DNA of 34,661 bases, taken from a virus. Both the position numbers and the translations under genes were made by a program. Shown one piece after another: positions 6,844-34,599 of this stretch (the stretch's first letter is position 1; every line of letters begins with the position of its first letter). The notes under the pieces were generated by a model. It searched no databases and was not told where the DNA came from. It was given only the letters and a program-made list of their open reading frames with translations. The DNA is taken from positions 1 to 34,661 of IMG/VR virus record IMGVR_UViG_3300013188_000003. One strand, 5' to 3'.

Positions 6844-6861
6844 ATATCTATTTGCCCTTAC

Positions 6862-8420: not shown

Positions 8421-8626
8421 TATTTACTCTCCCAATTTTTCATATAGTTTTGATATTTTTTGTTGTACAAACCACTGTCATCATCAGTAATAAATGGAGT
8501 ATCAACCTTATCAATAAGTGTGAATATTTTGTCATGCGTTTCATCATTCCAAATATTTGATTCTCCTGCCATAAGATTTAAAGCATAAACCATAAGTGCT
8601 TTTTCTTCATGTGTGTATCTAGCCAT
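8420..8626 (-). CDS. Hypothetical protein (68 aa)
   Basis: TAATG overlaps with both neighbours. Product begins MARYTHEEKALMVYALNLMA and includes an acidic DDETHDKIF-like region (NIWNDETHDKIFTLIDKVDTP) and YNKKYQNYMKNWESK end. The terminal ESK is imposed by the embedded ribosome site GAGAGTAAA of the next gene. No family recognised. Confidence 0.6.
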   Translation of the reverse strand: MARYTHEEKALMVYALNLMAGESNIWNDETHDKIFTLIDKVDTPFITDDDSGLYNKKYQNYMKNWESK

Positions 8627-8874: not shown

Positions 8875-9041
8875 TACTTATCCCCCTCTCTTAACTTAGC
8901 TTTCTCAATAGCAATTCTTTGCCACATAAAACTAGCATCTCTATCTTGTTTGGCTCTGAGCTTATCCATCTTCTTCTCATACTCAGCATTGATGTTATCA
9001 AGTTGCTTTATTAGATTTTCTAGATTTTCATATTTGTTCAT
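8874..9041 (-). CDS. Hypothetical coiled-coil protein (55 aa)
   Basis: Start chosen at ATG 9041 because the repeated leader with AAGGAGTTAAATAAC ends exactly there; the ORF continues upstream only through that leader. The product (MNKYENLENLIKQLDNINAE then YEKKMDKLRAKQDRDASFMW) shows heptad-like spacing of leucines and isoleucines typical of a coiled coil. It is the first gene after promoter copy 1. Confidence 0.65.
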   Translation of the reverse strand: MNKYENLENLIKQLDNINAEYEKKMDKLRAKQDRDASFMWQRIAIEKAKLREGDK

Positions 9042-9077
9042 GTTATTTAACTCCTTATTTTTAATTAACATACACCC

Positions 9078-9104
9078 ATTATATATAAAAATATATAAAT
9101 GTAT
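9078..9104 (-). promoter_or_regulatory. Repeated promoter/leader element, copy 1
   Basis: On the minus strand the element begins ATACATTTATATAT and ends TATAAT (the likely -10), followed about 37 bases later by the shared leader TATGTTAATTAAAAATAAGG and AGTTAAATAAC before ATG 9041. It differs by two bases from copies 2 and 4. No consensus -35 is present at normal spacing (GTATAC instead), so an activator or a special sigma preference is possible. Confidence 0.6.
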
Positions 9105-9108
9105 ACAA

Positions 9109-9366
9109 TTATTTTAAATTCTTTTTATTTAATTTATGAATCTTATAAATGCCTTTCTGATACTCAAAATCAGATTGCATATCTTCCCAAATCTCGTCTT
9201 TGATTTCTTGTTTGATAGAAGCATCAACTTTAGTTACTAATTCAAACTCAGACTTCTTAGGAATCCACCATTGATGATTCAATGATTTGTATTCAGGAGA
9301 TGGTTGACCTGAATCTTTCCATCTCCATTCAATAGCACCATGTTTGGTATTGCACATTAGGTTCAT
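9109..9366 (-). CDS. Hypothetical protein (85 aa)
   Basis: Coupled by TAATG to the gene upstream. MNLMCNTKHGAIEWRWKDSG then PEYKSLNHQWWIPKKSEFEL and an acidic helix DEIWEDMQSDFEYQKG, closing with a Lys/Asn-rich tail. The aromatic HQWWIP segment is notable. A start at the second Met is possible. The gene ends only 5 bases before promoter copy 1. No family recognised. Confidence 0.6.
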   Translation of the reverse strand: MNLMCNTKHGAIEWRWKDSGQPSPEYKSLNHQWWIPKKSEFELVTKVDASIKQEIKDEIWEDMQSDFEYQKGIYKIHKLNKKNLK

Positions 9367-9593
9367 TATTTAGTACCCCATTTAGCAATATACTCATGGT
9401 CAGGTATGCTTGTATCGTTGTAGTCTTTTTGCTTCAACAACTTATTTAATCGCTTCTCAATATACTTACAAAGAACAGCTCTTCTATCTTTATCAATTTT
9501 TTTGTTAAAAATACATCCTTCAAATAATATTCTTAGTTCTTCAATACTAAGCTGTCTTATTTCTTTTTGTACTTTTTCAGGTAGTCTAACCAT
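9366..9593 (-). CDS. Hypothetical basic helical protein (75 aa)
   Basis: ATG 9593 is preceded by AAGGAGAAGAAGA inside the previous gene. Product MVRLPEKVQKEIRQLSIEEL then RILFEGCIFNKKIDKDRRAV and a basic helix IEKRLNKLLKQK; ends with the embedded ribosome site of the next gene (KWGTK). Unknown family; helix-rich and charged, possibly nucleic-acid binding. Confidence 0.6.
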   Translation of the reverse strand: MVRLPEKVQKEIRQLSIEELRILFEGCIFNKKIDKDRRAVLCKYIEKRLNKLLKQKDYNDTSIPDHEYIAKWGTK

Positions 9594-9738
9594 TCTTCTT
9601 CTCCTTAGTTAATTTAACCTTATGCCCTTCTTTAATTAATCTTGCTCTCTTGCTAGCCATGTAGAACAAGTCGCTAGTCTTGATAGCAACCACCCAGCCT
9701 ATACTGGGTAGTTGAACTTGTAGTGTGTATCTAGTCAT
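9586..9738 (-). CDS. Hypothetical protein (50 aa)
   Basis: Starts at ATG 9738, sharing TAATG with the stop of the preceding gene, and ends with TAG at 9586, eight bases into the next gene. The product MTRYTLQVQLPSIGWVVAIK begins as beta strands, then TSDLFYMASKRARLIKEGHK and a Lys-rich end that carries the AAGGAGAAG ribosome site. Looks like a small two-strand plus helix fold. No family recognised. Confidence 0.55.
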   Translation of the reverse strand: MTRYTLQVQLPSIGWVVAIKTSDLFYMASKRARLIKEGHKVKLTKEKKNG

Positions 9739-9905
9739 TATGCAGTTATGTATAAGGTTCTAATGGTATTTTCAATATCTCTAATAACAGCCCTAAATTC
9801 ACCATGTGAAGTTTGCTGTAAAATTTGTATTTGCTGTCTTCTAGATAAACCTAGCAATCTTGACCTTTCAGCTTCTAGTTGTTGTATTAATTGTATGTTT
9901 GTCAT
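9738..9905 (-). CDS. Hypothetical coiled-coil protein (55 aa)
   Basis: Start placed at ATG 9905, directly after the repeated leader AAGGAGTTAAATAAC. The product MTNIQLIQQLEAERSRLLGL then SRRQQIQILQQTSHGEFRAV and IRDIENTIRTLYITA is helical with a Gln/Arg-rich middle. First gene after promoter copy 2. Function unknown. Confidence 0.6.
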   Translation of the reverse strand: MTNIQLIQQLEAERSRLLGLSRRQQIQILQQTSHGEFRAVIRDIENTIRTLYITA

Positions 9906-9941
9906 GTTATTTAACTCCTTATTTTTAATTAACATACTACC

Positions 9942-9968
9942 ATTATACATATAAATATATAAATGTAT
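9942..9968 (-). promoter_or_regulatory. Repeated promoter/leader element, copy 2
   Basis: Twenty-seven bases identical to the element at 31436-31462, some 21 kb away (or about 12 kb round the circle). Ends in TATGTATAAT, with ATACAT at one end and ATGTAT towards the other forming an imperfect dyad. The leader after it (AAAATAAGGAGTTAAATAAC) is also shared with copy 1. Drives the 55-aa coiled-coil gene at 9738. Confidence 0.65.
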
Positions 9969-9992
9969 ACAATTATATGAAAATATTTTAAT

Positions 9993-10316
9993 TTATTTTT
10001 CTAGCTTATCTATCTCAGCTTTACACTCTTTCATAGTGTTGCAAGTGATGCTGTTGACCCTCATAGATAAGATAAGGTTACTAATCTTCTCATTAATCAT
10101 TCTTTGATGTTCAGCTTCTTGTTCAGTCAAAGTACACTTAGAACAGGTGCAATCAGCACCATGCCATTCTTTTACTATCTTCTGCTTCTCTAGCTCTCTT
10201 CTCTTCTTAAGAAACTCCTCTTGAGGTTTAGCAGTCCATAGTGTCATTCTGCCATTATGGTCAAAGTCCTTCTCTATCTTGTAGCCTTTGTAGTGGTATG
10301 CTTTATCCCATCTCAT
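9993..10316 (-). CDS. Hypothetical protein with CTCSKC motif (107 aa)
   Basis: ATG 10316 follows AAGGAGTTAACAAC. Residues 1-30 read like a small beta domain (MRWDKAYHYKGYKIEKDFDH, NGRMTLWTAKP); then a charged helix, a GADCTCSKCTLTEQEAEHQR segment whose CxCxxC plus His could bind zinc, and a final helix with two more Cys. Unknown family. First gene after promoter copy 3. Confidence 0.65.
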   Translation of the reverse strand: MRWDKAYHYKGYKIEKDFDHNGRMTLWTAKPQEEFLKKRRELEKQKIVKEWHGADCTCSKCTLTEQEAEHQRMINEKISNLILSMRVNSITCNTMKECKAEIDKLEK

Positions 10317-10351
10317 GTTGTTAACTCCTTACTTTTAAAAACATAAGTAAG

Positions 10352-10379
10352 ATTATATATATAAATATATAAAGAGCAA
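10352..10379 (-). promoter_or_regulatory. Repeated promoter element, copy 3 (diverged)
   Basis: Shares the TTTATATATTTATAT core and TATAAT with the other copies but has TTGCTC 16 bases upstream of the -10, closer to a bacterial -35, in place of the ATACAT arm. It is followed by AAGTAAGGAGTTAACAAC and ATG 10316. It probably marks the upstream border of the small-gene transcription unit, just after the nuclease gene. Confidence 0.6.
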
Positions 10380-10382
10380 GTA

Positions 10383-10829
10383 TTAAATTATAGGATTCAG
10401 AACTGGAACTGAACTTAGATTGTCTAGTGTTTCTTTTAGGGAATCTAATTCCATAGATTCAGTGATAGCTTTCTTATCAAAAGTAAAATAGTTTTGTGAT
10501 GATGTATTTGCTTTGAACATGATTCGCTTTTTATCTTCATCAAAGAATACAAAAGCTAATATGTCGCAAGTGTAATGTTTGTAAGTTTCAGACATTGACC
10601 TTGAGTTCTCAGCAGCAAAAATAAACTTCTTTTCTTTAGTTGCTCTTCTGCTTTTTACTTGCACTGTATATTTAGCTGAACCAAATTCAACCATTAAATC
10701 AGCAGGATGTTTTTCTTGGGTTGGATAACAAAAGTCAGCGTACTCAAGCAAGAAGGTTTGAACTAATGATTCTCCTAATGCACCAAGTCTAGAATTAGCT
10801 TGATGTTGGTCTGATGTTTTTCTTGGCAC
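10383..10829 (-). CDS. PD-(D/E)XK endonuclease, PDDEXK_5-like
   Basis: A 148-aa protein starting with GTG at 10829 (MPRKTSDQHQANSRLGALGE), overlapping the endolysin by 35 bases. Motifs LGALGESLVQTFLLEY (E20), HPADLMVEFG (D44) and YTVQVKSRRA (Q57-V58-K59) match the PD-(D/E)XK family that includes group I intron endonucleases (PF11645-like). No intron is evident around it, so it may be a free-standing homing-type nuclease or a DNA-processing enzyme. Ribosome site is weak, consistent with coupling to the lysis gene. Confidence 0.75.
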   Translation of the reverse strand: MPRKTSDQHQANSRLGALGESLVQTFLLEYADFCYPTQEKHPADLMVEFGSAKYTVQVKSRRATKEKKFIFAAENSRSMSETYKHYTCDILAFVFFDEDKKRIMFKANTSSQNYFTFDKKAITESMELDSLKETLDNLSSVPVLNPII

Positions 10830-11238
10830 TTTTACACAAAGCTAGTTTTCTTGAATTCCTAGCTGCCCTATTTGGTGTTTGAACTGCATACTTACTTCTT
10901 AAAACTTCCTCTGATGCTTCTAACCAGCATCCCATCTCCATCAATGCTCTTGTTTGTCTAAAATTCATAAATCCTGCTATACCCATTTGAAATGCCATAT
11001 CAACACATACTTCTTGAGCAGGTGCAGGAAAACTTCTCCATACTTCCCACATCTTATCTAAATTAGCTACAACTCTATTGATATCATTCTCTAAAAGATA
11101 CATAGCTTCATCTTCTGATATACCATTAGCTTCTAAGTTCCTGCCTACGCCTATTGTTAGCTTGTTAGCACTACAATGATAAGGTTGACATACCAATCCT
11201 TCATTCTTGATTAGCATTTCTTTGATGTTGTCGTACAT
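10795..11238 (-). CDS. Endolysin, T4-type lysozyme (GH24)
   Basis: A 147-aa muramidase from ATG 11238 (MYDNIKEMLIKNEG). The catalytic triad spacing E-8aa-C-5aa-T is present (E13, C22, T28 in KNEGLVCQPYHCSANKLTIG followed by VGRN), with Cys where T4 lysozyme has Asp, as in many P22- and lambdoid-type lysozymes. Later helices include DMAFQMGIAGFMNFRQT and SRKLALC. A longer frame to 11349 overlaps the holin in another frame and I reject it. No signal peptide in the chosen form, so release should depend on the holin upstream. Cleaves peptidoglycan. Confidence 0.88.
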   Translation of the reverse strand: MYDNIKEMLIKNEGLVCQPYHCSANKLTIGVGRNLEANGISEDEAMYLLENDINRVVANLDKMWEVWRSFPAPAQEVCVDMAFQMGIAGFMNFRQTRALMEMGCWLEASEEVLRSKYAVQTPNRAARNSRKLALCKSAKKNIRPTSS

Positions 11239-11239
11239 T

Positions 11240-11611
11240 TTACTTTTTGGTTTTTTCGTAGGTTCTAAGTGTTGACATCCCAAGCATAGCCATAACGATT
11301 GTAGATAATTGGCTAAAGTCAAACTCAGGCGTTTCAAATTGAATTGCATTGACGATAAGAATATATTGAATAATAGGTTCTAAGATAAAGTGATAACCGA
11401 TTGAAAAACCACATATCCAACCAATAGCAGGACGCCAGCCTGAAACGAATATGTTATTGTGTTTTGCTTCAACTTTATTTACTTCTAATTGTGCTTTGTT
11501 TAACGAAATTATTTCTTTCTCCAGCTCGTGGGAAAGTTTTATTTTTAAATCTTTATCAGCAACAAATTTATCTAATATGTCACCAACAGGTTGGATTAGT
11601 TTATCTATCAT
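11240..11611 (-). CDS. Holin, 3TM GTA-type
   Basis: A 123-aa protein: amphipathic N-terminus (LIQPVGDILDKFVADKDLKI), then FVSGWRPAIGWICGFSIGYHF with the WRP motif typical of the holin family first known from gene-transfer-agent release (PF11351), a second hydrophobic stretch PIIQYILIVNAI and a third STIVMAMLGMSTLRTYEK. It should form the inner-membrane lesion that lets the endolysin out. ATGA overlap with the upstream gene and one base spacing to the endolysin form a lysis cassette. Confidence 0.85.
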   Translation of the reverse strand: MIDKLIQPVGDILDKFVADKDLKIKLSHELEKEIISLNKAQLEVNKVEAKHNNIFVSGWRPAIGWICGFSIGYHFILEPIIQYILIVNAIQFETPEFDFSQLSTIVMAMLGMSTLRTYEKTKK

Positions 11612-11844
11612 AATTTAATAATCAAGGTGATAATGCCACTTAATAGTATTAATATCACTGCACCCAAACCACCTTTAATAGACCAGTCAATTTTGTTAAG
11701 TTTAGCTTCAGTTTTGCCATCTAAATCTTTAACTTGTTCTTCTATCTTTTTTAGTCTATTCCAGTTTTGAGTCCATCTTTCACCGCATTGGATTTCGTGT
11801 TTTTCTAATTCAACTCCGATATCTTGTGCGGTGACTCTTGGCAT
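11608..11844 (-). CDS. Coiled-coil membrane protein, lysis-associated (XhlA-like)
   Basis: A 78-aa protein with a charged helical part (WNRLKKIEEQVKDLDGKTEA) and one C-terminal transmembrane helix (GGLGAVILILLSGIITLIIK). This layout resembles XhlA/hemolysin-type accessory holins and some spanin-like proteins. Next to the holin and coupled to it by ATGA, so a role in lysis timing is likely. A tail-related function cannot be excluded, but no signal for that is seen. Confidence 0.6.
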   Translation of the reverse strand: MPRVTAQDIGVELEKHEIQCGERWTQNWNRLKKIEEQVKDLDGKTEAKLNKIDWSIKGGLGAVILILLSGIITLIIKL

Positions 11845-12104
11845 TATTCTTCCTCTACTACCTCAACTTCTTCTTCAGCATTAATAGCTCTATCAAATGA
11901 TTCAATTACTAAGTTTTTGTATTCGTTAGTAATGACATAATCATCATAATGCTCTTGAAGTCTAGCTAGTTTTTTACCAGCAACATTTAATTTAGCAGCA
12001 AGTGCCATTTGCTCTTCATTTAAATCAGCAGCTCTGTACTCTACGTTATTAAATGTGATTATTACTGGTTCTTGATTTTCCATTTTATTTTCTTCTTTAC
12101 TCAT
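11844..12104 (-). CDS. Small acidic phage protein (86 aa, DUF6447-like)
   Basis: Good ribosome site (AGGAGAGTTAA) before ATG 12104. The sequence VIITFNNVEYRAADLNEEQM then a helical part AKLNVAGKKLARLQEHYDDY and an acidic end EEEVEVVEEE resemble small phage proteins I recall under DUF6447, often placed beside tail fibre or lysis genes. Role unknown; chaperone-like binding to fibre proteins has been suggested for neighbours of this type but not shown here. Confidence 0.6.
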   Translation of the reverse strand: MSKEENKMENQEPVIITFNNVEYRAADLNEEQMALAAKLNVAGKKLARLQEHYDDYVITNEYKNLVIESFDRAINAEEEVEVVEEE

Positions 12105-12134
12105 TTAACTCTCCTATAAGTTTATTAAAATTAA

Positions 12135-12164
12135 ATTATATACTGTTCTTTTAAAGGCTAGCAA
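12135..12164 (-). promoter_or_regulatory. Candidate promoter for the lysis cassette
   Basis: The minus strand shows TTGCTA (12159-12164), an 18-base spacer and TATAAT (12135-12140), placed at the very end of the fibre gene and about 30 bases upstream of the first lysis-cassette ATG. A sigma-70-like match with a perfect -10. It would let lysis genes be expressed apart from the 5.2-kb fibre gene. Confidence 0.45.
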
Positions 12165-15100
12165 TAATAAATGCTAAAAGTTCAGAATATCTAACTCCTA
12201 GTCTAGTTTTTTCTATTGCATTTTCAGGAGCTTCTTCTTCTGAATCATAAGTATTAGTTACAATTTTTTCCTCTTGTGCTTCTGTAACTACATTGCCATC
12301 TTCATCTAATTCTTCTTCTACTGCTGGTATAACCTCTTCAGTTTCCCACCAAGTGGTACTAATAAACATAGCATAATCACTTGCATCTAATCCTTCAGCA
12401 GTAAAAGCATCTTGTAAGTCTTGAGCTATGATTCCAAAGTGGATTCTAGCTTCATCACCTTTTTCTTCAACAGCAGATTGCCATCTAAACTTTCTTAATA
12501 GTCCTTTAGCTGCAACAGCTACTCTAGTTTCTGCATCTGTTAGAGCTTCTATATCTTGTTTTTCGTTTCTGTCTGAAGTTTGTATAGTGCCATTGGTGGC
12601 GTAGATATCATCAAATCTATAACTACTTGAACCCAAGTCAGTAATATTATCAGTAGCCGCACCTGTATTGTTTGTTGCGTATATTATATTTGTGCCAAAT
12701 AGTATTCCTGCATGATTTGTAGATGTGCTGCATAAATACATATTGTCACTTGAAGCAACACCAATAATTCCAACTGTTGAGCCTGCTTTTCTTAAAACTA
12801 CAATATCACCATCAGATGTTTGCCTATTAAAATAAGCTACAGGTGCACTATTAACAGCAGCATTTATTGCACCACTTTGTTGTATTTGAACACCATTATT
12901 TGTACTACTACCAGCAACACCTGTTGAAGTAGTACCCACCAACAAGTTGCCTGAAGTATCTAATCTAGCTCTTTCTGCGATATTATCTGCTGATGAAGTT
13001 CTAAAAGTTATAACCCCATCATCTTTATTAGTAGTATCTGAGCCTGTAAGAAATAACATATCTGCAACAGTAGTTCCATTCCATTTACCTGTAAGTGCAT
13101 TGATAGCTGCCCCTGCATTACCTCTATTTGCATCAATAATAATTGCATTAGAAGTATCACCTGTAGATTTAATTGTTAAACCTTCGTCACCACTATTTGT
13201 AAAAATGTGCAGATTGTTTTCAGGACTACTCGTTCCAATTCCAACGTTGCCGCCATCTTTAAGATACATAATAGTGCCATCACCATTCGCAAAAGCAATT
13301 TCACCAGCCGTACTATTAGCTTTTATAGTATGTAAAGCACTACTGCTACCACCACTTGATGTTGAACTTGTAAAAACCAATGAACGTGCGTTTGATGAAT
13401 AACCACCAGCTCGTAAATATTCACCTGCACTACCTTTATTTATTTCTAGGGTTGCAGTAGGACTATCGGTGCCAATTCCAACATTTCCAGCATGGTCTAT
13501 TCTAAGACGTTCTCCTCTGTTTGAGCCTGTAATAGTTCCAGTATAAAATGCTAACCCATAAGCAGCACCTGTGCTTGATGTTGCTATAGAAGCAATTTCA
13601 CCAGTTATGCCATCTGAATAAGTATTTGTATAACTTGCATCACTAGTTATGAAACTAATAGTTCCTGCTTTCTCACCTGTGGTCAAACCACCATCAGTAC
13701 CACCAATAGATAATATTGGGCTTGAACCACCTGATATTAAACTTGCTGGGCTATCGGTACCAATACCAACAGAACCAGCCGATGTAATTCTCATAACTTC
13801 ATTTATAGTTGAGCTACCACTAGGAGTTGTACCAAAAGTTAAATCTGTTGGATTGCTACCAGCAGAATGTGTACCTGATGCAACACCAGCTATATAAGCA
13901 TGAGCAGTATCAACAGTACCAGTATTATCTTTACCACCAAACTCTAAATAACCTAGAGGATTACCTGAAGATATAGATGTGTCGTCTCTTGATATTCTTA
14001 AAGCTGAATTAGATGAAGCACCAATATTTCCAAATCTTAATGAATCAACACCACTACCTTCTATGTGCAGAATACTATCAGGACTACTAATTCCAATACC
14101 AACAGAACCAGCCGATGTTACTCTAAATTTTTCACTTGCATTAGGTAATACTACAAAATCATCACCAGCACCACCAATAAAACAACCTGATGCACCTGCA
14201 TCTGAATCTAAAAATTCTATATATGCGTTAGCGTCTGTGCTTTGAAATTGAGCAACAGTATTAGCAGTACCACCATTAACATGAAGTGCATGTTCAGGAC
14301 TAGTTGTACCAATTCCAACGTTGCCATTACTTTTTATTATCATTTTCTCACTAGCATCAACTCTAAACTGAATATTGGACGAAGAACCTAAATTATCTTC
14401 ATCAGCTGCTATTACTAAATTATCTGAACCATCTATACCAATATAATTTCCACGAGGATTAGAAGAATCTTCTATAATTATTTTTTCGGCTGAACCACCT
14501 GATAAATGTAATATAGAATCAGGACTAGTCGTTCCAATTCCCAATCTTTCAGCACTTGCATCCCAAAAGAACTTAGCTGTAGTTCCTGTATTTTCATAGA
14601 AGGAGATGTCTCCGCCACCTTCAATAGTCATAAAGGTAGTACCACCAGAAGGTGATTCTGTATTAGCTGTAGCTACTGAAAAATTTAACTTACCATCTTC
14701 ACTTGTACTTGTAGCATCATTAATTGTTGCAAAAATACCTGCATATCCTATAGAAGTACCAGCATCATTATTGCCTTTAAATAAAAGCATACCTATGTTG
14801 TCACCATCAACAGGAGAAGCAGAGTCTCTAAATAAAACTAAATCAGGAGCAGTAGAGCCACCATCATTTGTACCTGTAATAATAAAATTATTAGTAGTAC
14901 CTGTTCCTGTATTAAATGTAGCTGTACCATCAACAGTCAATCCATCAGCAGTAACACTACCTGTAATATTAATATCACCTGTACCTGTAATATCGCTTGA
15001 ATTTAAATCTAAATTACCACCTAACTGAGGAGTTGTATCTTCTACAACATTGTTAATAGAAACAGCTTGTACTCTTGCATCTGTATAATAAAGGTTAGAG

Positions 15101-17373
15101 CCTTCAGCTAAATTTCCAGTATCTTTTGTTGCAAGTCTTGTATCAAAATCAGAGTTAGCTCTTGCACTTGTATAATATAAATTAGTACCTTCAGATAAGT
15201 CAGATGTAGATTTACCACTAAAAGCAGAATCAAATCTTGCTGTTGTGTAGTAAAGATTGCTAGTGCCTTCAGATACATCATCAGTATCTTTTGTAGCTAG
15301 TCTAGTATCAAATCTAGCATCAGTATAATAAAGATTAGTACCTTCTGCCAAGTCACCAGTATCATGATTAGATAAGCTAGAAACTGTACCTGTAACTGCT
15401 CCAGTAACATCACCTTCAATATTAGCAACTAAAGTACCAAGTGAATTAAGAGTAATATTACCTGTAGCACTACCATCTGCTGTTGTTAATCCTAATGTGA
15501 ATTTATCTACTGATTCGTCCCACATAAAGATACCATTATCAGCAGTACCTCTATTAATAAGCATACCTGAATCATTTACAGGACTACCTGTTAATCCTGC
15601 ATTAAGTTGGAATAAGTTATCTTCTATATCTAAGTTAGTAGTATCAAGTGAAGTTAAAGTTCCATTAACAGTAAGATTACCTGCTACTGTTAAATCAGAT
15701 GCAATTTGCACATCATCAGGTAGCGATAGTGTTATATCTGCAGACTCACTACCACTTCCTGACACTGAAATCTTATTAGCTGTTCCTGTTATCGTTGCAA
15801 CATAGTTACCTGTAGTATCAGTTCCTAATGCAACTGAATTAGCATCTACGCTTGCAGCTTGTACATTTAATGCATCAACAAATGCTTTAGTAACTCTTGC
15901 ATCTATAGCTGAATTAGCTCTTGCATCTGTATAGTAAAGGTTAGTTGAACCTTCAGTTAAATCATCAGTATCTTTGTTACCAAATGCAGAATCAAATCTT
16001 GTAGTTGTGTAATATAAATTAGTGCCTTCTGCTAAATCAGATGTAGACTTAGTTGCAAGTCTAGTATCAAATGCTGAATTAACTCTAGCTGTTGTGTAAT
16101 AAAGATTAGTACCTTCACTTAAATCACCTGTATCTTTAGTAGCTAATCTTGTATCAAAATCTGTATTTGCTCTTGTAGATGTATAGTAAAGATTTATAGT
16201 TCCTTCACTTAAATCATCAGTATCTTTATTTCCAAATGCTGTATCAAATCGTGCTTGCGTATAATATAAATTTGTATTCTCAACAACTATAGAAGTATCA
16301 AGAGTTGATGTAACTGCTTGATTAGATGCATTACCTATAAATATTTTGCCATTATCTAAGTTAGGAGTAGCGTTACTTCTTCCAGCACCACCTACTTTTA
16401 TTGAACCAGCAGCAGCATGACTTCTAATAACTTTACCTATGTTTTGTATTTGACTTGATTCACCTGTTGGAGCTGTAGTTGTATAAGCACCTGCTGTTGT
16501 AGATACATAAAGTATTTGACCTTCTGATACGCCTGAAGTATCTAATTCTTCAATAGTACCAAAGGTAACCACTTGTAATGCAGCATTATCATTAGCATCA
16601 GATAAAGCTAATCCAAATGCAGGCATCTTAGAAGCATCATCAGCTTTAGCTTGACCAACTGTTGGCACATCACCACTAACACCTGATATATAAACTACAT
16701 CACCTTTAGATAAAGCACCATCTGCTTTAGCATTAAATCTTATACCACCTTCTAAATCACCTATAAATTCTTCACTTGCTGTAATAATATTAAAAGTAAC
16801 ATCATCAGTTGTAGCTACAGCTTGTCCTATAGCAATACTAGGAGTAGAACCTTCACCAGTTCCACCTGTTACTGTTACACCAGTTCCACCTGATAGTGAT
16901 TCAACATAATCACCAGTTGTATCAGTTCCTAAAGTAATTGAATTAATTTGAACAACTGTATCTATATCTATGTTGGCACTACCATCAAAAGAAGCTGAGC
17001 CTACAACATCTCCTGATAAAGATATGGTTCTTGCTGTACTTAAAGTATCAGCAGAATCAGCATTACCTGTTAAGTCTCCAGTGACATTACCTGTAACATT
17101 ACCTGTTACATTACCAGTGACATTACCTGTTAAGTCACCTGTAAAGGTATTTGATGCAGTAATACTTATACCAGTTGTATACCAAGCATTATCAGCAGCG
17201 TTTCTTATCTTTAATACGCTATTAGCTGTATCTACCCATAATTGATGGGCAAATGTAGTTGATGGTTCAGTTGCTCCACTATTGACTGTCACAATAGCAG
17301 ATAAAGCATTATTTAAATCTGCTCTAAAATCTGCACCTGACTGGTTTGCTATGTTGTAATCGTGTTGTGCCAT
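12151..17373 (-). CDS. Long tail fibre with C-terminal S74 autoprotease chaperone
   Basis: A 1740-aa receptor-binding fibre; AGGA precedes ATG 17373. N-terminus (AQHDYNIANQSGADFRADLN) is the usual phage-fibre attachment segment. It is followed by a GNVT tetrapeptide run near residues 80-105, nine NLYYT.AR repeats in two blocks (about 365-485 and 675-765), and six GIGT.SP.xxLHI repeats (about 940-1385), all expected to form trimeric beta or coiled rods. From about residue 1600 SDRNEKQDI starts a peptidase S74 domain with the Ser-Lys pair; this intramolecular chaperone cleaves itself off after trimerisation. The acidic insertion VEEELDEDGNVVTEAQEEK near the end is unusual. Confidence 0.9.
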   Translation of the reverse strand: MAQHDYNIANQSGADFRADLNNALSAIVTVNSGATEPSTTFAHQLWVDTANSVLKIRNAADNAWYTTGISITASNTFTGDLTGNVTGNVTGNVTGNVTGDLTGNADSADTLSTARTISLSGDVVGSASFDGSANIDIDTVVQINSITLGTDTTGDYVESLSGGTGVTVTGGTGEGSTPSIAIGQAVATTDDVTFNIITASEEFIGDLEGGIRFNAKADGALSKGDVVYISGVSGDVPTVGQAKADDASKMPAFGLALSDANDNAALQVVTFGTIEELDTSGVSEGQILYVSTTAGAYTTTAPTGESSQIQNIGKVIRSHAAAGSIKVGGAGRSNATPNLDNGKIFIGNASNQAVTSTLDTSIVVENTNLYYTQARFDTAFGNKDTDDLSEGTINLYYTSTRANTDFDTRLATKDTGDLSEGTNLYYTTARVNSAFDTRLATKSTSDLAEGTNLYYTTTRFDSAFGNKDTDDLTEGSTNLYYTDARANSAIDARVTKAFVDALNVQAASVDANSVALGTDTTGNYVATITGTANKISVSGSGSESADITLSLPDDVQIASDLTVAGNLTVNGTLTSLDTTNLDIEDNLFQLNAGLTGSPVNDSGMLINRGTADNGIFMWDESVDKFTLGLTTADGSATGNITLNSLGTLVANIEGDVTGAVTGTVSSLSNHDTGDLAEGTNLYYTDARFDTRLATKDTDDVSEGTSNLYYTTARFDSAFSGKSTSDLSEGTNLYYTSARANSDFDTRLATKDTGNLAEGSNLYYTDARVQAVSINNVVEDTTPQLGGNLDLNSSDITGTGDINITGSVTADGLTVDGTATFNTGTGTTNNFIITGTNDGGSTAPDLVLFRDSASPVDGDNIGMLLFKGNNDAGTSIGYAGIFATINDATSTSEDGKLNFSVATANTESPSGGTTFMTIEGGGDISFYENTGTTAKFFWDASAERLGIGTTSPDSILHLSGGSAEKIIIEDSSNPRGNYIGIDGSDNLVIAADEDNLGSSSNIQFRVDASEKMIIKSNGNVGIGTTSPEHALHVNGGTANTVAQFQSTDANAYIEFLDSDAGASGCFIGGAGDDFVVLPNASEKFRVTSAGSVGIGISSPDSILHIEGSGVDSLRFGNIGASSNSALRISRDDTSISSGNPLGYLEFGGKDNTGTVDTAHAYIAGVASGTHSAGSNPTDLTFGTTPSGSSTINEVMRITSAGSVGIGTDSPASLISGGSSPILSIGGTDGGLTTGEKAGTISFITSDASYTNTYSDGITGEIASIATSSTGAAYGLAFYTGTITGSNRGERLRIDHAGNVGIGTDSPTATLEINKGSAGEYLRAGGYSSNARSLVFTSSTSSGGSSSALHTIKANSTAGEIAFANGDGTIMYLKDGGNVGIGTSSPENNLHIFTNSGDEGLTIKSTGDTSNAIIIDANRGNAGAAINALTGKWNGTTVADMLFLTGSDTTNKDDGVITFRTSSADNIAERARLDTSGNLLVGTTSTGVAGSSTNNGVQIQQSGAINAAVNSAPVAYFNRQTSDGDIVVLRKAGSTVGIIGVASSDNMYLCSTSTNHAGILFGTNIIYATNNTGAATDNITDLGSSSYRFDDIYATNGTIQTSDRNEKQDIEALTDAETRVAVAAKGLLRKFRWQSAVEEKGDEARIHFGIIAQDLQDAFTAEGLDASDYAMFISTTWWETEEVIPAVEEELDEDGNVVTEAQEEKIVTNTYDSEEEAPENAIEKTRLGVRYSELLAFIIASL
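13223..14550 (-). repeat. Six coding GIGT.SP repeats in the fibre
   Basis: Peptide motif [RNS][LV]GIG(T/I)xSPxxxLxI occurs six times, each ending a 50-130-residue module, for example RLGIGTTSPDSILHL, NVGIGTTSPEHALHV and NVGIGTSSPENNLHI. The DNA copies (ttccaattcc.acgttgcc type) are visibly similar and could recombine to lengthen or shorten the fibre. These are coding repeats, not a CRISPR or iteron array. Confidence 0.8.
15072..15345 (-). repeat. NLYYT.AR repeats, block 2 (four copies)
   Basis: Four copies of the unit D..EG(T/S)NLYYT.AR........LATKDT in the fibre, spaced about 28 residues (near 84 bases). Units are DNA-similar to those of block 1 (15917-16280), separated by an inserted module with AGNLTVNGT. 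Typical of phage fibre shafts; a likely substrate for unequal recombination. Confidence 0.8.
15917..16280 (-). repeat. NLYYT.AR repeats, block 1 (five copies)
   Basis: Five copies of the unit (NLYYTQAR, NLYYTSTR, NLYYTTAR, NLYYTTTR, NLYYTDAR) joined by DLSEGT or DDLTEGS linkers and RLATKDT or FGNKDTD caps. Regular spacing of about 28 residues suggests a repeating trimeric fold along the shaft. Confidence 0.8.
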
Positions 17374-17402
17374 AATAAAAATCCTATTTTATATATCTTA
17401 AA

Positions 17403-17771
17403 TCATTCAGGGATAGTTGGAAATATAACATCAGCAATATTATTGACTGACTGATGTGTAGATGGTAAATCTCTTAATGATTGCCTATATGTTGCCCATT
17501 CTTGTTTTTTAGAATCAGATAAAGGACAGTCATTTACTTGAGTCCAATCTGATTGTTTTAATAATTCGTTTCTTTTGTTTCTTAATATCTCTAGTGTATT
17601 ATCAGTTCTTATTACTGCTTCGCCATCAACTATCTTATATTCATTAGGTTGATAACTACCCTCAATAATACCTTGTCCTTCTGTTAAACCTACTTCATTT
17701 ATTTCTGCAACAGTAGAAGTAGAATATTCTATTTCTCCTGTATCTAGATTATATATACTAAATATATTCAT
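17403..17771 (-). CDS. Tail fibre assembly chaperone-like protein
   Basis: A 122-aa protein whose C-terminal half (RNKRNELLKQSDWTQVNDCP, LSDSKKQEWATYRQSLRDLP then FPTIPE) matches the phage tail assembly chaperone pattern (PF16778-like: R..LL..SDWTQ..D.PL....W..YR..LRD.P). The N-terminal part is a beta domain that probably contacts the fibre. Such proteins help fibre folding or attach it to the virion; placement between tail tip J and the fibre agrees. Overlaps the J stop by one base. Confidence 0.85.
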   Translation of the reverse strand: MNIFSIYNLDTGEIEYSTSTVAEINEVGLTEGQGIIEGSYQPNEYKIVDGEAVIRTDNTLEILRNKRNELLKQSDWTQVNDCPLSDSKKQEWATYRQSLRDLPSTHQSVNNIADVIFPTIPE

Positions 17772-28844: not shown

Positions 28845-30333
28845 CGTCTTCCTCTTCCCCACCTTGTATCTTAGCTTCTACAGGTAATTTTTGACCAAAT
28901 GGTTGATAAGCTAATTCAATATCATATTGTTTAGCTAGTTCTATTTCTTTTTGATGTTGTTCAAATAATTCCTCAGTATCTCTACCATAAGAAGCAGAAA
29001 TATCAGAATAGGTAAGTGTTCCATTTTGTAAACCTATTACATTAGCTTGCATTTCTTTTAATGGGTCAATCCAAGCAAAACTTCTTGGAATGTAATTTAC
29101 TGACCTAGCAAACTTATCATATTTACCCATTGGTAAATTAATATATCCAGTTGATATAGCCATCTCTAACCAAGATTGAAATACTGGATTTACAAAATGC
29201 TCAATTACAAATTGTTGATATATCTGATACATACTTCTGTCCTCGAGAGCACCTTGCCTGATACTTGAATAATTGACTGAGGTCAAATCGTTGGAAAGCG
29301 AGTGATATGAAATGTTTAAACCTGAAGCTATACTTCTAAGTACGCTTGTTGTAAAAGAATCAAAAGCAGATGTTGGATGCGTAGGGTCAAATGCTTTGAA
29401 GTCCATACCACTAGGTAATTGTTCAAATACACCAGCCTGAGCATTCATTGTTGGATTAAATGTATCTTCATATTCACCATCACCAACATAACCATCACCA
29501 TCAGGTGAAGTAAAGAAACCCATCTTAGATGCACCAACTCTAGCTGCAACTATCTCAGCTTCTAAATAACCATTTAACATTTTCACATTAGCCATAGCTG
29601 TAGCAACCAAAGAAACACCTCTAGTTTGTTCTGCTCTAGTAGGTAGGTAAGCATGGATAATCTCATCAGCAGGTACTCTAATGTGTTGTGCTTGACTTAA
29701 ATAAACTCTATCGTAAGGATGGTCTTTATATAAATGATAAGCAACTGGTCTGTCATACTTATCTACTTCAACACCCATTTTAACTTTGTTGCCAGTAGCT
29801 TTATAAACATCATTTTTATTTTCATCTAAATGGTCTGCTTCTAAAAACTGTAACTGGAAACCAAAAGGTGAATTGCTGTCTTTTATTTTCCTGATTAATA
29901 CTTCACCATCTCTACATAGTGATTCAACAAATATTTTTTGACAATCTAAGAATGATAATCTTCCATTAGTAGTACAACTTCCGACTTGACCCCATTCTCT
30001 CCAAGCACGTTCAATGAGCAGGTTAGCTCCAATGTCTAGTGAACCATTATCGTTCCTAGCCTTAGAGCTAACTCTTATGCCATGCTTACCGATAACATTA
30101 GATACCATCAGGTTTAAGTATCTAGCAATATAGCTATCGTTTCTTGCTAATTCTCTTGCTCTATCTCTTAGAATTCTTATGTTATCTTTTATTTCAGCAT
30201 CAGCACTTGTAGATGTGGTAACAAAATCTGCAAACAATCTTCCAGTGTTAGCTCCTGTATAGCTTCTTCTATATGCTTGTCTTTTCTTTTTCTTAGGTTC
30301 GTTAATACCTAATATTCTGTTATACCATGCCAT
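28837..30333 (-). CDS. Portal protein, lambda family
   Basis: A 498-aa portal: MAWYNRILGINEPKKKKRQA, then RRSYTGANTGRLFADFVTTS, RDRARELARNDSYIARYLNL, VIGKHGIRV, GEVLIRKI, LQFLEADHLDENKN and a C-terminal acidic tail. The R.RSR.L.RN.......L...V.G.GI pattern is that of lambda gpB-type portals (PF05136). The dodecameric ring forms the DNA channel and binds terminase and FII/W-like connectors. Starts in TAATG with the gpW-like gene. The gene overlaps the capsid fusion by 8 bases. Confidence 0.92.
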   Translation of the reverse strand: MAWYNRILGINEPKKKKRQAYRRSYTGANTGRLFADFVTTSTSADAEIKDNIRILRDRARELARNDSYIARYLNLMVSNVIGKHGIRVSSKARNDNGSLDIGANLLIERAWREWGQVGSCTTNGRLSFLDCQKIFVESLCRDGEVLIRKIKDSNSPFGFQLQFLEADHLDENKNDVYKATGNKVKMGVEVDKYDRPVAYHLYKDHPYDRVYLSQAQHIRVPADEIIHAYLPTRAEQTRGVSLVATAMANVKMLNGYLEAEIVAARVGASKMGFFTSPDGDGYVGDGEYEDTFNPTMNAQAGVFEQLPSGMDFKAFDPTHPTSAFDSFTTSVLRSIASGLNISYHSLSNDLTSVNYSSIRQGALEDRSMYQIYQQFVIEHFVNPVFQSWLEMAISTGYINLPMGKYDKFARSVNYIPRSFAWIDPLKEMQANVIGLQNGTLTYSDISASYGRDTEELFEQHQKEIELAKQYDIELAYQPFGQKLPVEAKIQGGEEEDDG

Positions 30334-30950
30334 TATGTGTAACTCTTAGGAGTTGAGCCAGCAACTTTACCAAAATTAACCTTGATAGTATTTCCTGACC
30401 CACGTTTATTTTTAATTCTTTGTATTTTAACTTCTTTAAGATATTCAGCTTTGTATCTATCTCTAAAAGTTAATAGTTCGTCTATAGACATTCTTGATAA
30501 AGACCTACCAGCTATAGACATAGATGATTGGTCAATATTTGCTCTGTTCTCAATAACTGCTTCGATACTATCTAAAACAATCTTTGCATGACTTCTAACT
30601 GAAGCAGTTGTAGTTGCATAATTATCTTGGACTTCTACAAAACCTTCTTCTAGTTTGACTCTTGCAGAATCAGAACTTCTAGTTATGTAAGATACCCAAT
30701 TGTAATTACCTTTAGTGTAAGAAGATGTATTACTAGCTTCAATTAAATAAGTGTCACCTGACTCAGTTGCAGTTAATGTAAAGTTAGAAGCAGTGCTTCC
30801 ATCTACAAGATTAAATTCATAAGATAATGAATAATCTGCTACTGGATAATCGTTAGCTAAATCTTCTCTTTTCCATGCCCAATAGTCTCCCAACTGAAGT
30901 TCAGTAGGAACTTGGGGTGGATAATTTGTTGAATCAAATTTGTTGCTCAA
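30333..30950 (-). CDS. gpW-like head-tail connector with N-terminal beta domain
   Basis: A 205-aa protein starting with TTG at 30950; GAGG lies 7 bases upstream and no in-frame ATG fits. Residues 1-110 form a beta-type, Ig-like region (DYSLSYEFNLVDGSTASNFT, YNWVSYITRS). Residues 145-175 (MSIAGRSLSRMSIDELLTFR then DRYKAEY) match lambda gpW, which enters the portal to hold packaged DNA. Lambda gpW is only 68 aa, so an N-terminal domain has been added. Position between terminase and portal is as in lambda. Confidence 0.7.
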   Translation of the reverse strand: MSNKFDSTNYPPQVPTELQLGDYWAWKREDLANDYPVADYSLSYEFNLVDGSTASNFTLTATESGDTYLIEASNTSSYTKGNYNWVSYITRSSDSARVKLEEGFVEVQDNYATTTASVRSHAKIVLDSIEAVIENRANIDQSSMSIAGRSLSRMSIDELLTFRDRYKAEYLKEVKIQRIKNKRGSGNTIKVNFGKVAGSTPKSYT

Positions 30951-30989
30951 GCAAAAACCTCATAAATGTTTTAGATATATCTACATCTA

Positions 30990-31017
30990 ACACTAATGTG
31001 CATTAAGCTCTTGTCAA
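30990..31017 (-). promoter_or_regulatory. Possible promoter for the head operon
   Basis: A perfect -35 hexamer TTGACA (31012-31017, minus strand) lies just after the terminator and upstream of the gpW-like gene. The matching -10 is weak: TAGTGT at 16 bases or TTAGAT at 21. A palindrome AGATATATCT at about 30972-30981 follows. Placement after a strong terminator makes some promoter here likely. Confidence 0.3.
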
Positions 31018-31030: not shown

Positions 31031-31062
31031 AAAAATAAAAAAGGCTCAATTAAGAGCCTTTT
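31031..31062 (-). terminator. Rho-independent terminator after the 108-aa gene
   Basis: On the minus strand AAAAGGCTC-TTAATT-GAGCCTTTT forms a 9-bp perfect stem (31039-31047 with 31054-31062) followed by TTATTTTT. It lies 16 bases past the stop of the gene at 31078 and should end its transcript. It also separates terminase from the head genes unless antiterminated. Confidence 0.88.
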
Positions 31063-31077
31063 GTGATTTTGGTGGGA

Positions 31078-31404
31078 TTATGCTGCATCTTCCCAAGATA
31101 CAGGAAAACCATTACCTGCAATTATGAATCTTTTGCAATTACCATCAGCAGTTTCTATTCTTCCACCATATTGTGCTAATCTTTCAGCAGCACTATTAGT
31201 AAGTTTTCCTGCTTCCATTAAATTTAACAACTCATCTGATTCTGACCAGTGTAAAAGTAAAATATTAGTATGTAATTCTTTAGAGAAAATTCTAACCATT
31301 ACATTAAACTCATCTCTATTTAATTTGCCAGCCATTTTTGATAATGATGTATGTGCTTGTCTAAGTAATTTAACTTGGTTTACTTCTTTTGTATTTCTTT
31401 TCAT
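31078..31404 (-). CDS. Unrecognised 108-aa gene, separate unit inside the late operon
   Basis: Behind promoter copy 4 and AAGGAGTTAAAA, and closed by an intrinsic terminator. The product MKRNTKEVNQVKLLRQAHTS continues LSKMAGKLNRDEFNVMVRIF, then LLLHWSESDELLNLMEAGKL, TNSAAERLAQYGGRIETADG and NCKRFIIAGNGFPVSWEDAA. Helical with a compact C-terminal beta part. I know no homologue. The moron-like arrangement and the promoter shared with the early small-gene cluster suggest a regulatory or host-directed function rather than a virion part. Confidence 0.75.
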   Translation of the reverse strand: MKRNTKEVNQVKLLRQAHTSLSKMAGKLNRDEFNVMVRIFSKELHTNILLLHWSESDELLNLMEAGKLTNSAAERLAQYGGRIETADGNCKRFIIAGNGFPVSWEDAA

Positions 31405-31435
31405 TTTTAACTCCTTATTAAAATGTATACTACTT

Positions 31436-31462
31436 ATTATACATATAAATATATAAATGTAT
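31436..31462 (-). promoter_or_regulatory. Repeated promoter/leader element, copy 4
   Basis: Identical over 27 bases to copy 2 at 9942-9968. The minus strand ends in TATGTATAAT and is followed by a shorter leader that keeps AAGGAGTTAA before ATG 31404. This is the only copy outside the small-gene cluster. It gives the gene at 31078 the same expression signal as that cluster. Confidence 0.65.
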
Positions 31463-31486
31463 ATAAAAAAGTGAAAAAAAGTGCAA

Positions 31487-33307
31487 TTATTTCCAAGAAG
31501 TAGCGAAATTTCCTCTATTTATACCTCTTTGTGGTCTATTTTGTGGTTTTTCTCTTGGTTTTGACTCTTGGGTAAGTATTTTATTCTCAATAGAGTCATA
31601 GTTAGGATTCAAGATATAGATAGCAGCAAAGTTATATACCAACGTATCTAATGCTTCGTTTCTTGGTCTTACTTGCTTCCAAACTAGCGTTTTCCTACCT
31701 CTTACAAACTTTGTGATTCTTTTTTCTGCTGTAAGCTGCTTAAAGTATTCTTCATCTAAGTCAGAGCAGAAATGCAAAGTAGTATTTTCAGGTTCAGTAG
31801 ACAATCTAGCAAAAATAGCTTCTTTTGCACTATCAGAACCAACACCATAAAGAACAGCTTTATTCTTTCCAACAAATGTAGGTCTATTTGCTATTGGTTT
31901 ACCAGCTTGAGATAAACCTTTAATTGCAAAGATTCTTCTAGCTTGTCGTGGTTTAGTAAATTGATAAACCATATTGGTATGATGACCACCTGAGTCAATC
32001 GTGCAACATGATATAGGTATTAATCTTTCTGATTCAGTTTTAAATCTTTTCTTTAGATAAGCATCTAAATCATTCCAAACATTCATAGCATTTGGGTCAC
32101 CCCAAAATATCTTGTAATCACAAACCCATGCTTCATAATTCTTACCCCATCCCACCAATTGCAGTTCCAACCTATCCTTCTGCGTATCAATACCAGCAGT
32201 TAAAACTAAAACATCTTCAGGAATAGTTGTGTAATCATAATTCAATCTACGTTCTAGTAATGTTTCATATTCAACAGCTTCACCTTGTTCTTCCCAAGAT
32301 TCACCAAGAGCAGTATTAATCCAAGTCTTTAGCATCTCAGGATTCTTTTTAGCTTCAAGAAATGATTTAGCCATATCTGCCCAAGTAGACCAAACTGAAT
32401 ATAGTTCTGATATATGAAATCCTGCTGTATCTGATTTAGGTGCTGATGCAATCCATTCACCATGTTTTAACATCCATTGTTTTTTTGATTCATCTATTAC
32501 TGAACCACAATGTTCGCAAGCATAAGAAGCTGTTTCAGGTTTGTCTTCATCCCAAACTACATTCTTCCATTTAAGAACTTGACTCTCATTACATTCAGGA
32601 CAAGGAACATGGTAGTAGCGTTTATCTGATTCTTCAAAAGCAGTTTCTATTCTTGATAGTCCTTTGATTGTAGGAGTAGAACACATATATATCTTTTTAT
32701 TCCAAAAGGTAGTTGTTCTTTTAGTTGCAAGTGATATTGGGTCACCTTCTGCTCCTGCTGATTGTTCGTATCTATCAACCTCATCAGCTAATACAATTCT
32801 AATTGGTCTTGATGCAAGTCCTGATGCAGAATTAGAACCAACAATGTTTAGATTACCACCTGCAAACTTTTTAGATAAAACTGTATTTCCTGAATCACGA
32901 CTTCTTGGGTCTTTTACACAATCTCTTATCTTTTCAGAATCTCTAATCATAGTAGCAAGCCTATCTTTACTAAATGCTTGTGCCATTTGCAAAGTAGGTT
33001 GCATGATTAGCATTGGAGCTGGGTCTTGGTCTATGTAGTAACCAATGACATTTAGTAATATCTCAGTTGCACCAACTTGAGCAGATTTCATAAATACTAT
33101 TCTTTGTATATCAGGGTCATTGAAAGAATCCATTATCTCTCTTTGATAAGGTGCTCTATCAGTTCTCCATGCTCCTGCTTCTGCTGAAGATTCAGGAGAT
33201 AAACGTCTATAGTTATCTGACCAGTCACTAATCTTCAGATTGGGTGGTGGAGTCCATGTCTGATTCGTCTCCTGTATCACCTTTTCTATATTTTTGAGGT
33301 ATTCCAT
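31487..33307 (-). CDS. Terminase large subunit, lambda gpA family
   Basis: A 606-aa packaging motor. ATPase: VFMKSAQVGATE (residues 72-82, the Walker A variant used by gpA-type enzymes), LIMQPTLQMAQAFSK, and Walker B IRIVLADEVDRY near 169-180. CSTPTIKG follows as coupling motif. A zinc finger CPEC...CEHC lies near 235-265. The nuclease half starts near VLTAGIDTQKDRLELQLVGW. It translocates DNA into the prohead and cuts at genome ends. Its first 80 bases overlap the small subunit gene. The gpA family normally cuts at cos sites. Confidence 0.93.
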   Translation of the reverse strand: MEYLKNIEKVIQETNQTWTPPPNLKISDWSDNYRRLSPESSAEAGAWRTDRAPYQREIMDSFNDPDIQRIVFMKSAQVGATEILLNVIGYYIDQDPAPMLIMQPTLQMAQAFSKDRLATMIRDSEKIRDCVKDPRSRDSGNTVLSKKFAGGNLNIVGSNSASGLASRPIRIVLADEVDRYEQSAGAEGDPISLATKRTTTFWNKKIYMCSTPTIKGLSRIETAFEESDKRYYHVPCPECNESQVLKWKNVVWDEDKPETASYACEHCGSVIDESKKQWMLKHGEWIASAPKSDTAGFHISELYSVWSTWADMAKSFLEAKKNPEMLKTWINTALGESWEEQGEAVEYETLLERRLNYDYTTIPEDVLVLTAGIDTQKDRLELQLVGWGKNYEAWVCDYKIFWGDPNAMNVWNDLDAYLKKRFKTESERLIPISCCTIDSGGHHTNMVYQFTKPRQARRIFAIKGLSQAGKPIANRPTFVGKNKAVLYGVGSDSAKEAIFARLSTEPENTTLHFCSDLDEEYFKQLTAEKRITKFVRGRKTLVWKQVRPRNEALDTLVYNFAAIYILNPNYDSIENKILTQESKPREKPQNRPQRGINRGNFATSWK

Positions 33308-33844: not shown

Positions 33845-34444
33845 TCATTTGCCAACTACCCTCTTCAGGTTCTTATTTAATATCTTATCCATATTCTTTT
33901 GCACAACACCCTTAACTGTTTTATAGAACTCAATACGCTTTCTATAGAATACTGAATTTTCAAATGCAACTATGAGCTTTAACTTAGGATTACGTTTTCC
34001 ACCTACTCTTCTCCATACACCATCAATACCTTTAACGTTACCCATAAACTCAGTGTTTCTTTTGATTAATCCAGTTCTTTTACCTTTTATATTACCAAAT
34101 GCATTGATCTTAGCCTTGTCTACTGGTACTGGTATCTTATTCTTCTCAGGTAATCTAAGACCACCTTCAAATTGTTTCTCTAAATACTTAGCTTGTATAT
34201 CAGGTATGAATACTAATGCTGATAAGACTCTTGCTTTAGCTTTAAATAACTTAACACCTGTATATGTAAACTTAGTTGGTTTATCTAACTTCTTAAGTAA
34301 TTGTGATCTCATAGCGTTAACTGACTTAACACCAACCTCATTGATTGAATCGCTAACTATCTCAGGCATATGCTTCTTCTGAAACATACCTAACTTCTTT
34401 TCTAATTCTTTAGCATTAGTTTTAATATCAATACTTACAGTCAT
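33845..34444 (-). CDS. Minor tail protein Z-like (variable locus, version B)
   Basis: A 199-aa counterpart of the protein at 160-777; ATG 34444 is preceded by GGAGAAAGGG and overlaps the HTH stop (ATGA). LDKPTKFTYTGVKLFKAKAR, LVFIPDIQAKYLEKQFEGGL and INAFGNIKGKRTGLIKR then GNVKGIDGVWRR fit the minor-tail-Z pattern even better than version A. The two proteins share roughly a third of residues by eye, mostly in the FGNI-to-VAF.NSV block, and the DNA between the flanks is barely alignable. Most likely an alternative allele of one locus rather than a second gene in the same genome. Confidence 0.65.
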   Translation of the reverse strand: MTVSIDIKTNAKELEKKLGMFQKKHMPEIVSDSINEVGVKSVNAMRSQLLKKLDKPTKFTYTGVKLFKAKARVLSALVFIPDIQAKYLEKQFEGGLRLPEKNKIPVPVDKAKINAFGNIKGKRTGLIKRNTEFMGNVKGIDGVWRRVGGKRNPKLKLIVAFENSVFYRKRIEFYKTVKGVVQKNMDKILNKNLKRVVGK

Positions 34445-34599
34445 CCCTTTCTCCAGTGTGATTGTGTTTGAAACTTTAGACCTAATGCTTTAGCCTTTCT
34501 TCTGATCGTAGATGGATGCACATCATAAGTCATAGCAATATCATGTGATGATTTACCTTCCTTAATCTTCTGTTCTAATTTTTGTTTATCTATCTTCAT
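34441..34599 (-). CDS. 52-aa helix-turn-helix protein, second copy
   Basis: Same protein as at 774-932 with A for E in KAKALGLKF. Several base changes near the Z-like end are mainly synonymous, which indicates selection on the protein. Both ATGA overlaps are conserved. Confidence 0.75.
   Translation of the reverse strand: MKIDKQKLEQKIKEGKSSHDIAMTYDVHPSTIRRKAKALGLKFQTQSHWRKG

Follow-up and report, generated by a model that had tools for sequence, protein, structure and literature searches.

The window, by which we mean the whole analysed stretch of 34,661 bases, is a linear virus record (IMG/VR IMGVR_UViG_3300013188_000003) with a GC content of 33.6%, and nearly all of its longer open reading frames (ORFs) lie on the minus strand. 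Its genes include those for the small and large terminase subunits, a gpW-like joining protein, the portal, the major head protein and the tail, an endolysin and a holin followed by a run of small unknown genes, and a RecE-like exonuclease VIII, a RusA-like resolvase and a primase/helicase. A 1740-aa gene at 12151-17373 is without an NCBIfam match. Near both ends of the window (160-932 and 33845-34599) there is a gene pair encoding a 52-aa HTH-like protein and a phrog_1924 minor tail-like protein, and the two pairs are diverged copies of each other. A scan against Rfam gave no match at the gathering score. The features between the terminase and head genes are the following.

31487-33307, minus strand: terL, large terminase subunit, 606 aa (phrog_15, E 3.7e-263), left anchor of the slot
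31436-31463, minus strand: promoter-like element TATACA-N16-TATAAT, matching the early element at 9942-9969 in all 28 bp
31402-31429, minus strand: leader with Shine-Dalgarno sequence (AAGGAGT at 31410-31416) and start codon, variant TATACATTTTAATAAGGAGTTAAAAATG
31078-31404, minus strand: slot gene, 108-aa orphan protein, sole member of family 28 of 28
31039-31062, minus strand: intrinsic terminator AAAAGGCTCTTAATTGAGCCTTTT, constant 3' flank of the slot
30990-31017, minus strand: head-gene promoter candidate TTGACA-N16-TAGTGT, after the terminator
30333-30950, minus strand: gpW-like head-tail joining gene (phrog_5774, E 6.4e-33), right anchor of the slot

The slot gene is thus positioned between terL and the gpW-like head gene. 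A preliminary description of this DNA had given it a ribosome site of its own and a strong terminator, and both were confirmed: AAGGAGT stands 5 nt ahead of the ATG, and the terminator has a 9-bp stem, a 6-nt loop and a T-rich tail (-12.8 kcal/mol, z -4.65). The promoter element had been called identical over 27 bases to the one at 9942; identical it is, over 28 bases. At the limits used, the 108-aa product, P0001, matched nothing in PHROGs, Pfam, NCBIfam or PADLOC, and at E<=1 Pfam offered only Translin (0.02) and a cyclase (0.21). Comparison with solved structures gave nothing convincing (best E 0.05), and the structure prediction was unusable (pLDDT 46.6). With no family or structure match, the suggestion that this is a regulatory gene was not upheld. 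No relative of P0001 was found in viral contigs, genome contigs or phages (E 0.4 at best), both contig scans having used 8-residue exact patterns that detect close relatives only. Nor was there one in the other fetched loci or, the self-match apart, in 33 whole records. Far from being universally present, the protein is seen on one contig only, the window. Deviant base composition was considered for the slot gene and rejected, as its GC content is 30.6% against 33.6% for the window, and values this low or lower are found in 19% of the window's 327-nt stretches.

To compare junctions, the best 80 terL relatives in IMG/VR (91-99% amino acid identity) were oriented and the distance from the terL stop to the gpW start was measured. 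Apart from the window, 76 contigs of this terL-selected set had both flanks; 36 of their junctions measured 89-96 bp and 40 measured 420-1060 bp. Further contigs were added by means of the leader and the terminator, with 19 loci that repeated counted contigs removed. After exclusion of 8 of 108 contigs without one flank, there were 100 uncultured contigs with both flanks, window included, of which 36 were empty (~90 bp) and 64 filled. The ratio of empty to filled sites is best taken from the terL-selected set, because the added contigs were found by motifs of filled sites. Presence and absence with intact flanks bear out the view of a self-contained insert. The accompanying statement that genes usually abut at this junction applies to three cultured Roseobacter phages, CRP-821, CRP-811 and CRP-406 (terL ~49% identical), in which terL and the next gene do abut, but not to the uncultured clade of the window, where the empty junction spans ~90 bp and holds a promoter candidate. 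Of 103 contigs with a right flank, 100 carry this candidate, TTGAC[AT]-N16-TAGTGT, between slot and gpW (35 of 36 empty and 65 of 67 filled sites), always with a spacer of 16 nt. The proposal of a separate promoter for the head genes therefore has good support at the sequence level, in a candidate downstream of the terminator. In most junctions printed there is also a palindrome, AGATATATCT, at 30951-30990, downstream of the head-gene promoter candidate.

One further relative comes from a single cell. The SAR86 contig CACEDS010000004.1 has ordinary cell genes up to ~50.2 kb and then a relative of the phage (our locus L160, ~50300-72734) with a terL 97% identical at the amino acid level and an empty slot. 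Both gene pairs from the window ends match one single place in this contig. No integrase was recognised, and tRNA genes were absent from both the window and the SAR86 stretch L167. The contig suggests that SAR86 is the host and that the phage is possibly a prophage, a chimeric assembly being another possible explanation.

Filled sites, with partial contigs included, held 78 called ORFs, which fall into 28 families without a mutual match at E 1e-4. One filled contig (L094) was without a callable ORF and holds a broken occupant, the ORF behind its leader (at 785 of the reversed locus) ending after two codons. Description of the insert as a cassette was accordingly correct in that a real insert exists, but understated, since the site is a slot with 28 alternative families and not one cassette. 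Representatives of the 28 families had no strong match in Pfam, PADLOC or PHROGs; PADLOC gave four weak single-member matches (best E 2.4e-4) and Pfam one weak HTH match (E 8.5e-4). Within families, codon positions 1, 2 and 3 account for 163, 78 and 272 of the differences, and because most are at position 3 the slot ORFs look like genes under selection.

The flanks are constant and the ORFs variable. Filled sites, when printed, show an AT-rich promoter-like stretch and a leader upstream and, in most, the same terminator downstream. Most leaders are TATGTTAAACAAAAAGGAGTCAAACATG, and a variant with TATACATTTTAATAAGGAGTTAAA is found in the window and six other contigs; the first 24 bases of the window leader TATACATTTTAATAAGGAGTTAAAAATG are exact in 6 other contigs. 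When one representative of each of the 21 families having the common terminator was compared (210 pairs), the 19 nt up to the ATG were 88% identical between families and the first 150 nt of the ORF 34%. The terminator was 96% identical, a figure that is partly by construction, as the alignment was anchored on the terminator's own motif. Three filled contigs (L035, L046 and L068; families 14 and 22) have a leader and a terminator of a different kind, so the flanks are specific to lineages and not universal. The stop codon in L024 falls within the terminator stem, and L023 has two tandem genes, each with its own leader.

Empty and filled sites occur on near-identical backbones. The terL genes of L049 (empty), L052 (family 1) and L072 (family 3) share 99.3-99.5% identity, and their gpW genes 99.8-100%. 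Slot state differs in 12 of 16 pairs with terL 98-99.5% identical and in 1 of 22 pairs at >=99.5%. A terL tree of 88 tips, from which 12 of the 100 contigs were left out for incomplete terL, requires at least 40 changes among 27 states, against 49-52 when labels were shuffled 30 times; this indicates some inheritance together with very fast change, the counts serving as a guide only because terL itself may recombine. In six contigs (L088, L101, L108, L116, L119 and L147) terL is only ~61% identical, gpW is ~90-96% identical and the slot families are the same, from which it appears that cassettes or the flank cross between terL lineages.

Promoters and ORFs are also reassorted. The slot promoter types differ in sequence and need not share a common regulator, and seven families stand under more than one type. 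Six four-gamete quartets, in which pairs of families and pairs of promoters occur in all four combinations, point to crossovers between promoter and ORF. Additionally, the family 1 proteins of L017 and L052 are near-identical in their C-terminal halves and diverged in their N-terminal halves, which suggests exchange inside the ORF too.

The promoter element and the leader of the slot lead to the early region of the window, where the following features are found.

9942-9969, minus strand: promoter element, early position 1, identical to 31436-31463
9903-9936, minus strand: early leader TATGTTAATTAAAAATAAGGAGTTAAATAACATG
9738-9905, minus strand: variable 55-aa gene of early slot 1, a family singleton
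9078-9105, minus strand: promoter element, early position 2, third copy, 2 mismatches
9039-9072, minus strand: early leader TATGTTAATTAAAAATAAGGAGTTAAATAACATG, second exact copy
8874-9041, minus strand: 55-aa gene behind the second early leader, in the largest early-leader family (11 members)

All three copies of the element read TATACA-N16-TATAAT on the minus strand and agree with 10 of 12 sigma-70 positions; further copies of the element like these two, at <=3 mismatches, were given by 0 of 100 dinucleotide shuffles. The two exact copies have perfect 7-base inverted arms, TATACAT/ATGTATA, which overlap both hexamers. An operator or repressor site is not claimed, because the arms are not kept by all slot promoter types and the arm pattern by itself does not exceed chance (10 found at <=3 mismatches, 7.1 expected).

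The early leader TATGTTAATTAAAAATAAGGAGTTAAATAACATG is exact in 42 other viral contigs, giving 50 copies with those of the window. A complete ORF follows 49 of the 50, and these 49 ORFs form 25 families; in 37 of the 49 (21 families) an identical next-gene start lies within 60 nt. With 25 ORF families and a shared next-gene start behind one leader, early position 1 makes up a second slot. Of the 28 families of the terL-gpW slot, five (14, 16, 20, 23 and 27) were found elsewhere. Family 20 is shared by the slot of L023 and the early region of L205 (88.6% amino acid identity), and family 16 by the slot of L066 and the early region of L181 (83%). Most families shared between early region and slot, these two excepted, are distant (38-49%). 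Family 14 occurs elsewhere in L202 and L179, family 27 in L203 and L206, and family 23 in L195. The exact early leader precedes the slot-family gene in L205, L202 and L195, and a close variant does so in L181; in L179, L203 and L206 the gene is further down the early run, without a leader of early type. In L059 and L062 a family 23 gene adjoins terS behind yet another leader, possibly a third slot. For families 20 and 16 the similarity extends from the ATG to about the stop codon, and the leaders are specific to position.

The preliminary description had the insert carry the control signal of the early cluster, as is supported by the 28-bp copy of the element and by the genes behind early leaders; its term for the insert, an early-type cassette, proves largely right, since five of 28 families occur elsewhere and four of them directly behind an early-type leader. 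Given the related ORFs behind the sister early leader, the slot most probably serves to express an accessory protein of early type apart from the late operon, and judging by these signals the slot gene would be an early one.

The ends of the genes differ with their context. A Shine-Dalgarno-like motif is present in the last 16 nt of 37 of 49 early-leader genes against 3 of 66 genes that are last in the slot, and in 31 of the 49 the stop overlaps the next start as TAATG. Within family 1 the tail is AAGGAGTGTGCATAATG when a second gene follows (L148, L153, L155 and L156) and AAAAAAGCAGCATAATCCC when none does. The common GCATAAT end, which is absent from some families, suggests genes adapted to two contexts. 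An alanine at the C-terminus, found in a member of 12 of the 28 slot families, was considered as a degradation tag; this was dropped, because a built-in ribosome site and the shared GCATAAT boundary explain the tails better. Tentatively, and at somewhat short of even odds, we propose that the ORF itself is the unit of exchange, bounded 5' by the Shine-Dalgarno leader and 3' by the GCATAAT tail, so that the same ORF would fit either the first position of the early operon or an autonomous position between terL and the head genes, and that selection keeps its ends standard and interchangeable. In the early operon the last codons of the ORF (AAGGAGTGTGCATAATG, Lys-Glu-Cys-Ala) would at the same time provide the ribosome site for the gene that follows; at the terL-head site this built-in site would have decayed (AAAAAAGCAGCATAATCCC), with the terminator closing the unit.

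We consider that the terL-gpW junction of these uncultured marine phages is a standing slot for accessory genes, with a constant frame in which ORFs are swapped by homologous recombination, a reading to which we assign a probability of roughly 0.78. The 5' constant part would comprise an AT-rich sigma-70-type promoter of the early-region kind and the conserved Shine-Dalgarno leader, the variable part one or two small ORFs, and the 3' constant part a short tail with the stop codon and the intrinsic terminator, with the conserved head-gene promoter candidate next. Co-infecting relatives would replace, gain or lose ORFs through crossovers that fall either in the constant leader and terminator or in the neighbouring genes, and the whole slot could also be exchanged through terL and gpW. 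Such exchange is probably aided by two enzymes of the phage.

6862-7692, minus strand: exonuclease VIII, RecE-like (phrog_412, E 1.3e-59), candidate engine of homologous exchange
5333-5800, minus strand: RusA-like Holliday junction resolvase (phrog_244, E 6.2e-18)

The location of the slot would leave the packaging and head genes undisturbed. Small orphan proteins under early-type promoters usually target host functions or rivals, and the slot proteins may likewise act on the host or on competing phages.

Several other accounts of the junction were weighed. The slot gene is co-directional with the packaging and head genes, so it could be a late gene that is read through from terL by antitermination, with an inactive promoter-like element; AT-rich DNA is after all rich in promoter-like matches (65 found at 1-17500, against 80.6 expected from shuffling). 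This is very improbable, given that an early position holds an exact duplicate of the element, that the terminator and the downstream head-gene promoter candidate would insulate the slot, and that slot families also stand behind early leaders. A single ordinary moron, inserted once in the lineage of the window by illegitimate recombination and like the early promoter by coincidence only, would suit the classical layout of the insert and a protein without a relative anywhere searched. It is very improbable, because the same promoter, leader and terminator frame holds 27 other families at the same point and the 28-bp identity of the element is beyond chance.

Every relative that bears the slot is a metagenomic contig, and single cases could therefore be counterfeited by chimeric assembly. 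The shared stretches, with a common prefix of up to 109 nt and a common suffix of up to 131 nt in the pairs compared, are long enough to mislead short-read assembly, and joining of unrelated genes at a repeated leader and terminator might thus inflate the diversity of the slot. We give this very little credence: each of the 19 families that have more than one member is represented in two or more different IMG records, chimeras of this sort cannot produce empty sites, and the tails of the ORFs suit their context, being Shine-Dalgarno-like where a gene follows and rarely so where the gene is last. Constant ends around variable insides, and the two genes of L023 with a leader each, recall integron cassettes, and a dedicated site-specific enzyme might move an integron-like or transposon-like cassette. 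We think this highly unlikely, as the constant ends are a promoter, a ribosome binding site and a terminator that vary between lineages and promoter types, and only the ORF is common to both slots. The insert had also been called transposable; in the sense of a self-moving element this is not borne out, there being no adjoining transposase gene, and the pattern fits homologous exchange through shared flanks.

As a standing slot, the junction affords an unusually clean view of the trade in accessory genes, in which the regulatory frame is constant and the coding part is exchanged, and the empty sites, on backbones with terL identities of up to 99.5%, serve as a natural control. New small phage proteins can be harvested by leader and terminator alone, without homology (28 families, and 25 at early leaders). 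Since related genes occur both in an early operon and in an insulated slot of the late region, they allow a direct comparison of the timing and context of a single protein.

No description of the terL-gpW slot was recognised in the portions of the literature searched. Near-identical backbones with different genes at fixed places, the terminase region included, are known from metaviromic islands and flexible genes of marine and cryoconite phages (PMC3909814 and PMC7468147, in the sections available). Those islands hold variable core or recognition genes and, in the same sections, are given no promoter and terminator frame, unlike the slot. The anti-phage hotspots of P2 and P4 likewise have a high turnover of genes between conserved genes, for which homologous exchange has been suggested (available part of PMC9122126), and resemble the slot with its at least 40 occupant changes on 88 tips between two conserved genes. 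A constant promoter-leader-terminator frame is present here and is not described in that part of PMC9122126, and the slot proteins match no defence family well.

Start-associated sequences (SAS, with ESAS) of Cluster K mycobacteriophages carry a Shine-Dalgarno sequence before genes of different families, in several copies per genome and often with an upstream inverted repeat (PMC3203893, in the part available). Here, too, the same start-associated leader stands before different families, in the late slot and in the early one (25 families, 49 ORFs). In the available part of PMC3203893 SASs are placed in non-structural regions, with no mention of an exchange slot that has a constant terminator; moreover, the 13-bp consensus GGGATAGGAGCCC is absent from the slot leaders, which are AAAAAGGAGTCAAACATG or variants, and the host is different.

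PeSLs (promoter-early stem-loop cassettes) are composite intergenic motifs, each an early promoter plus a stem-loop. In T4-like phages these motifs are shared sequence that serves gene shuffling among related phages (Arbiol 2010 and Comeau 2014, as cited in the available part of PMC4503421). Reassortment of promoters and ORFs in the slot fits shuffling through shared motifs. In contrast to PeSLs, the slot has its promoter and terminator on opposite sides of the ORF, there is one slot at the terminase-head junction and one early slot, and the phage is not T4-like.

Morons, as defined for lambdoid phages by Hendrix and colleagues, are extra genes, each equipped with a promoter and a terminator, that separate two genes adjacent in relatives; they are expressed from the prophage apart from the lytic programme and are often noted for a base composition unlike their surroundings. 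The slot gene resembles them in lying between two genes adjacent in relatives, with what appear to be its own promoter and terminator. It differs in that its composition is not deviant (30.6% against 33.6% GC), and in that many unrelated genes share one promoter, leader and terminator frame at one site. The term is in current use (PMC6469090, in the part available), and we call the slot a moron hotspot, akin to the PeSLs of T4 and the SAS/ESAS of mycobacteriophages.
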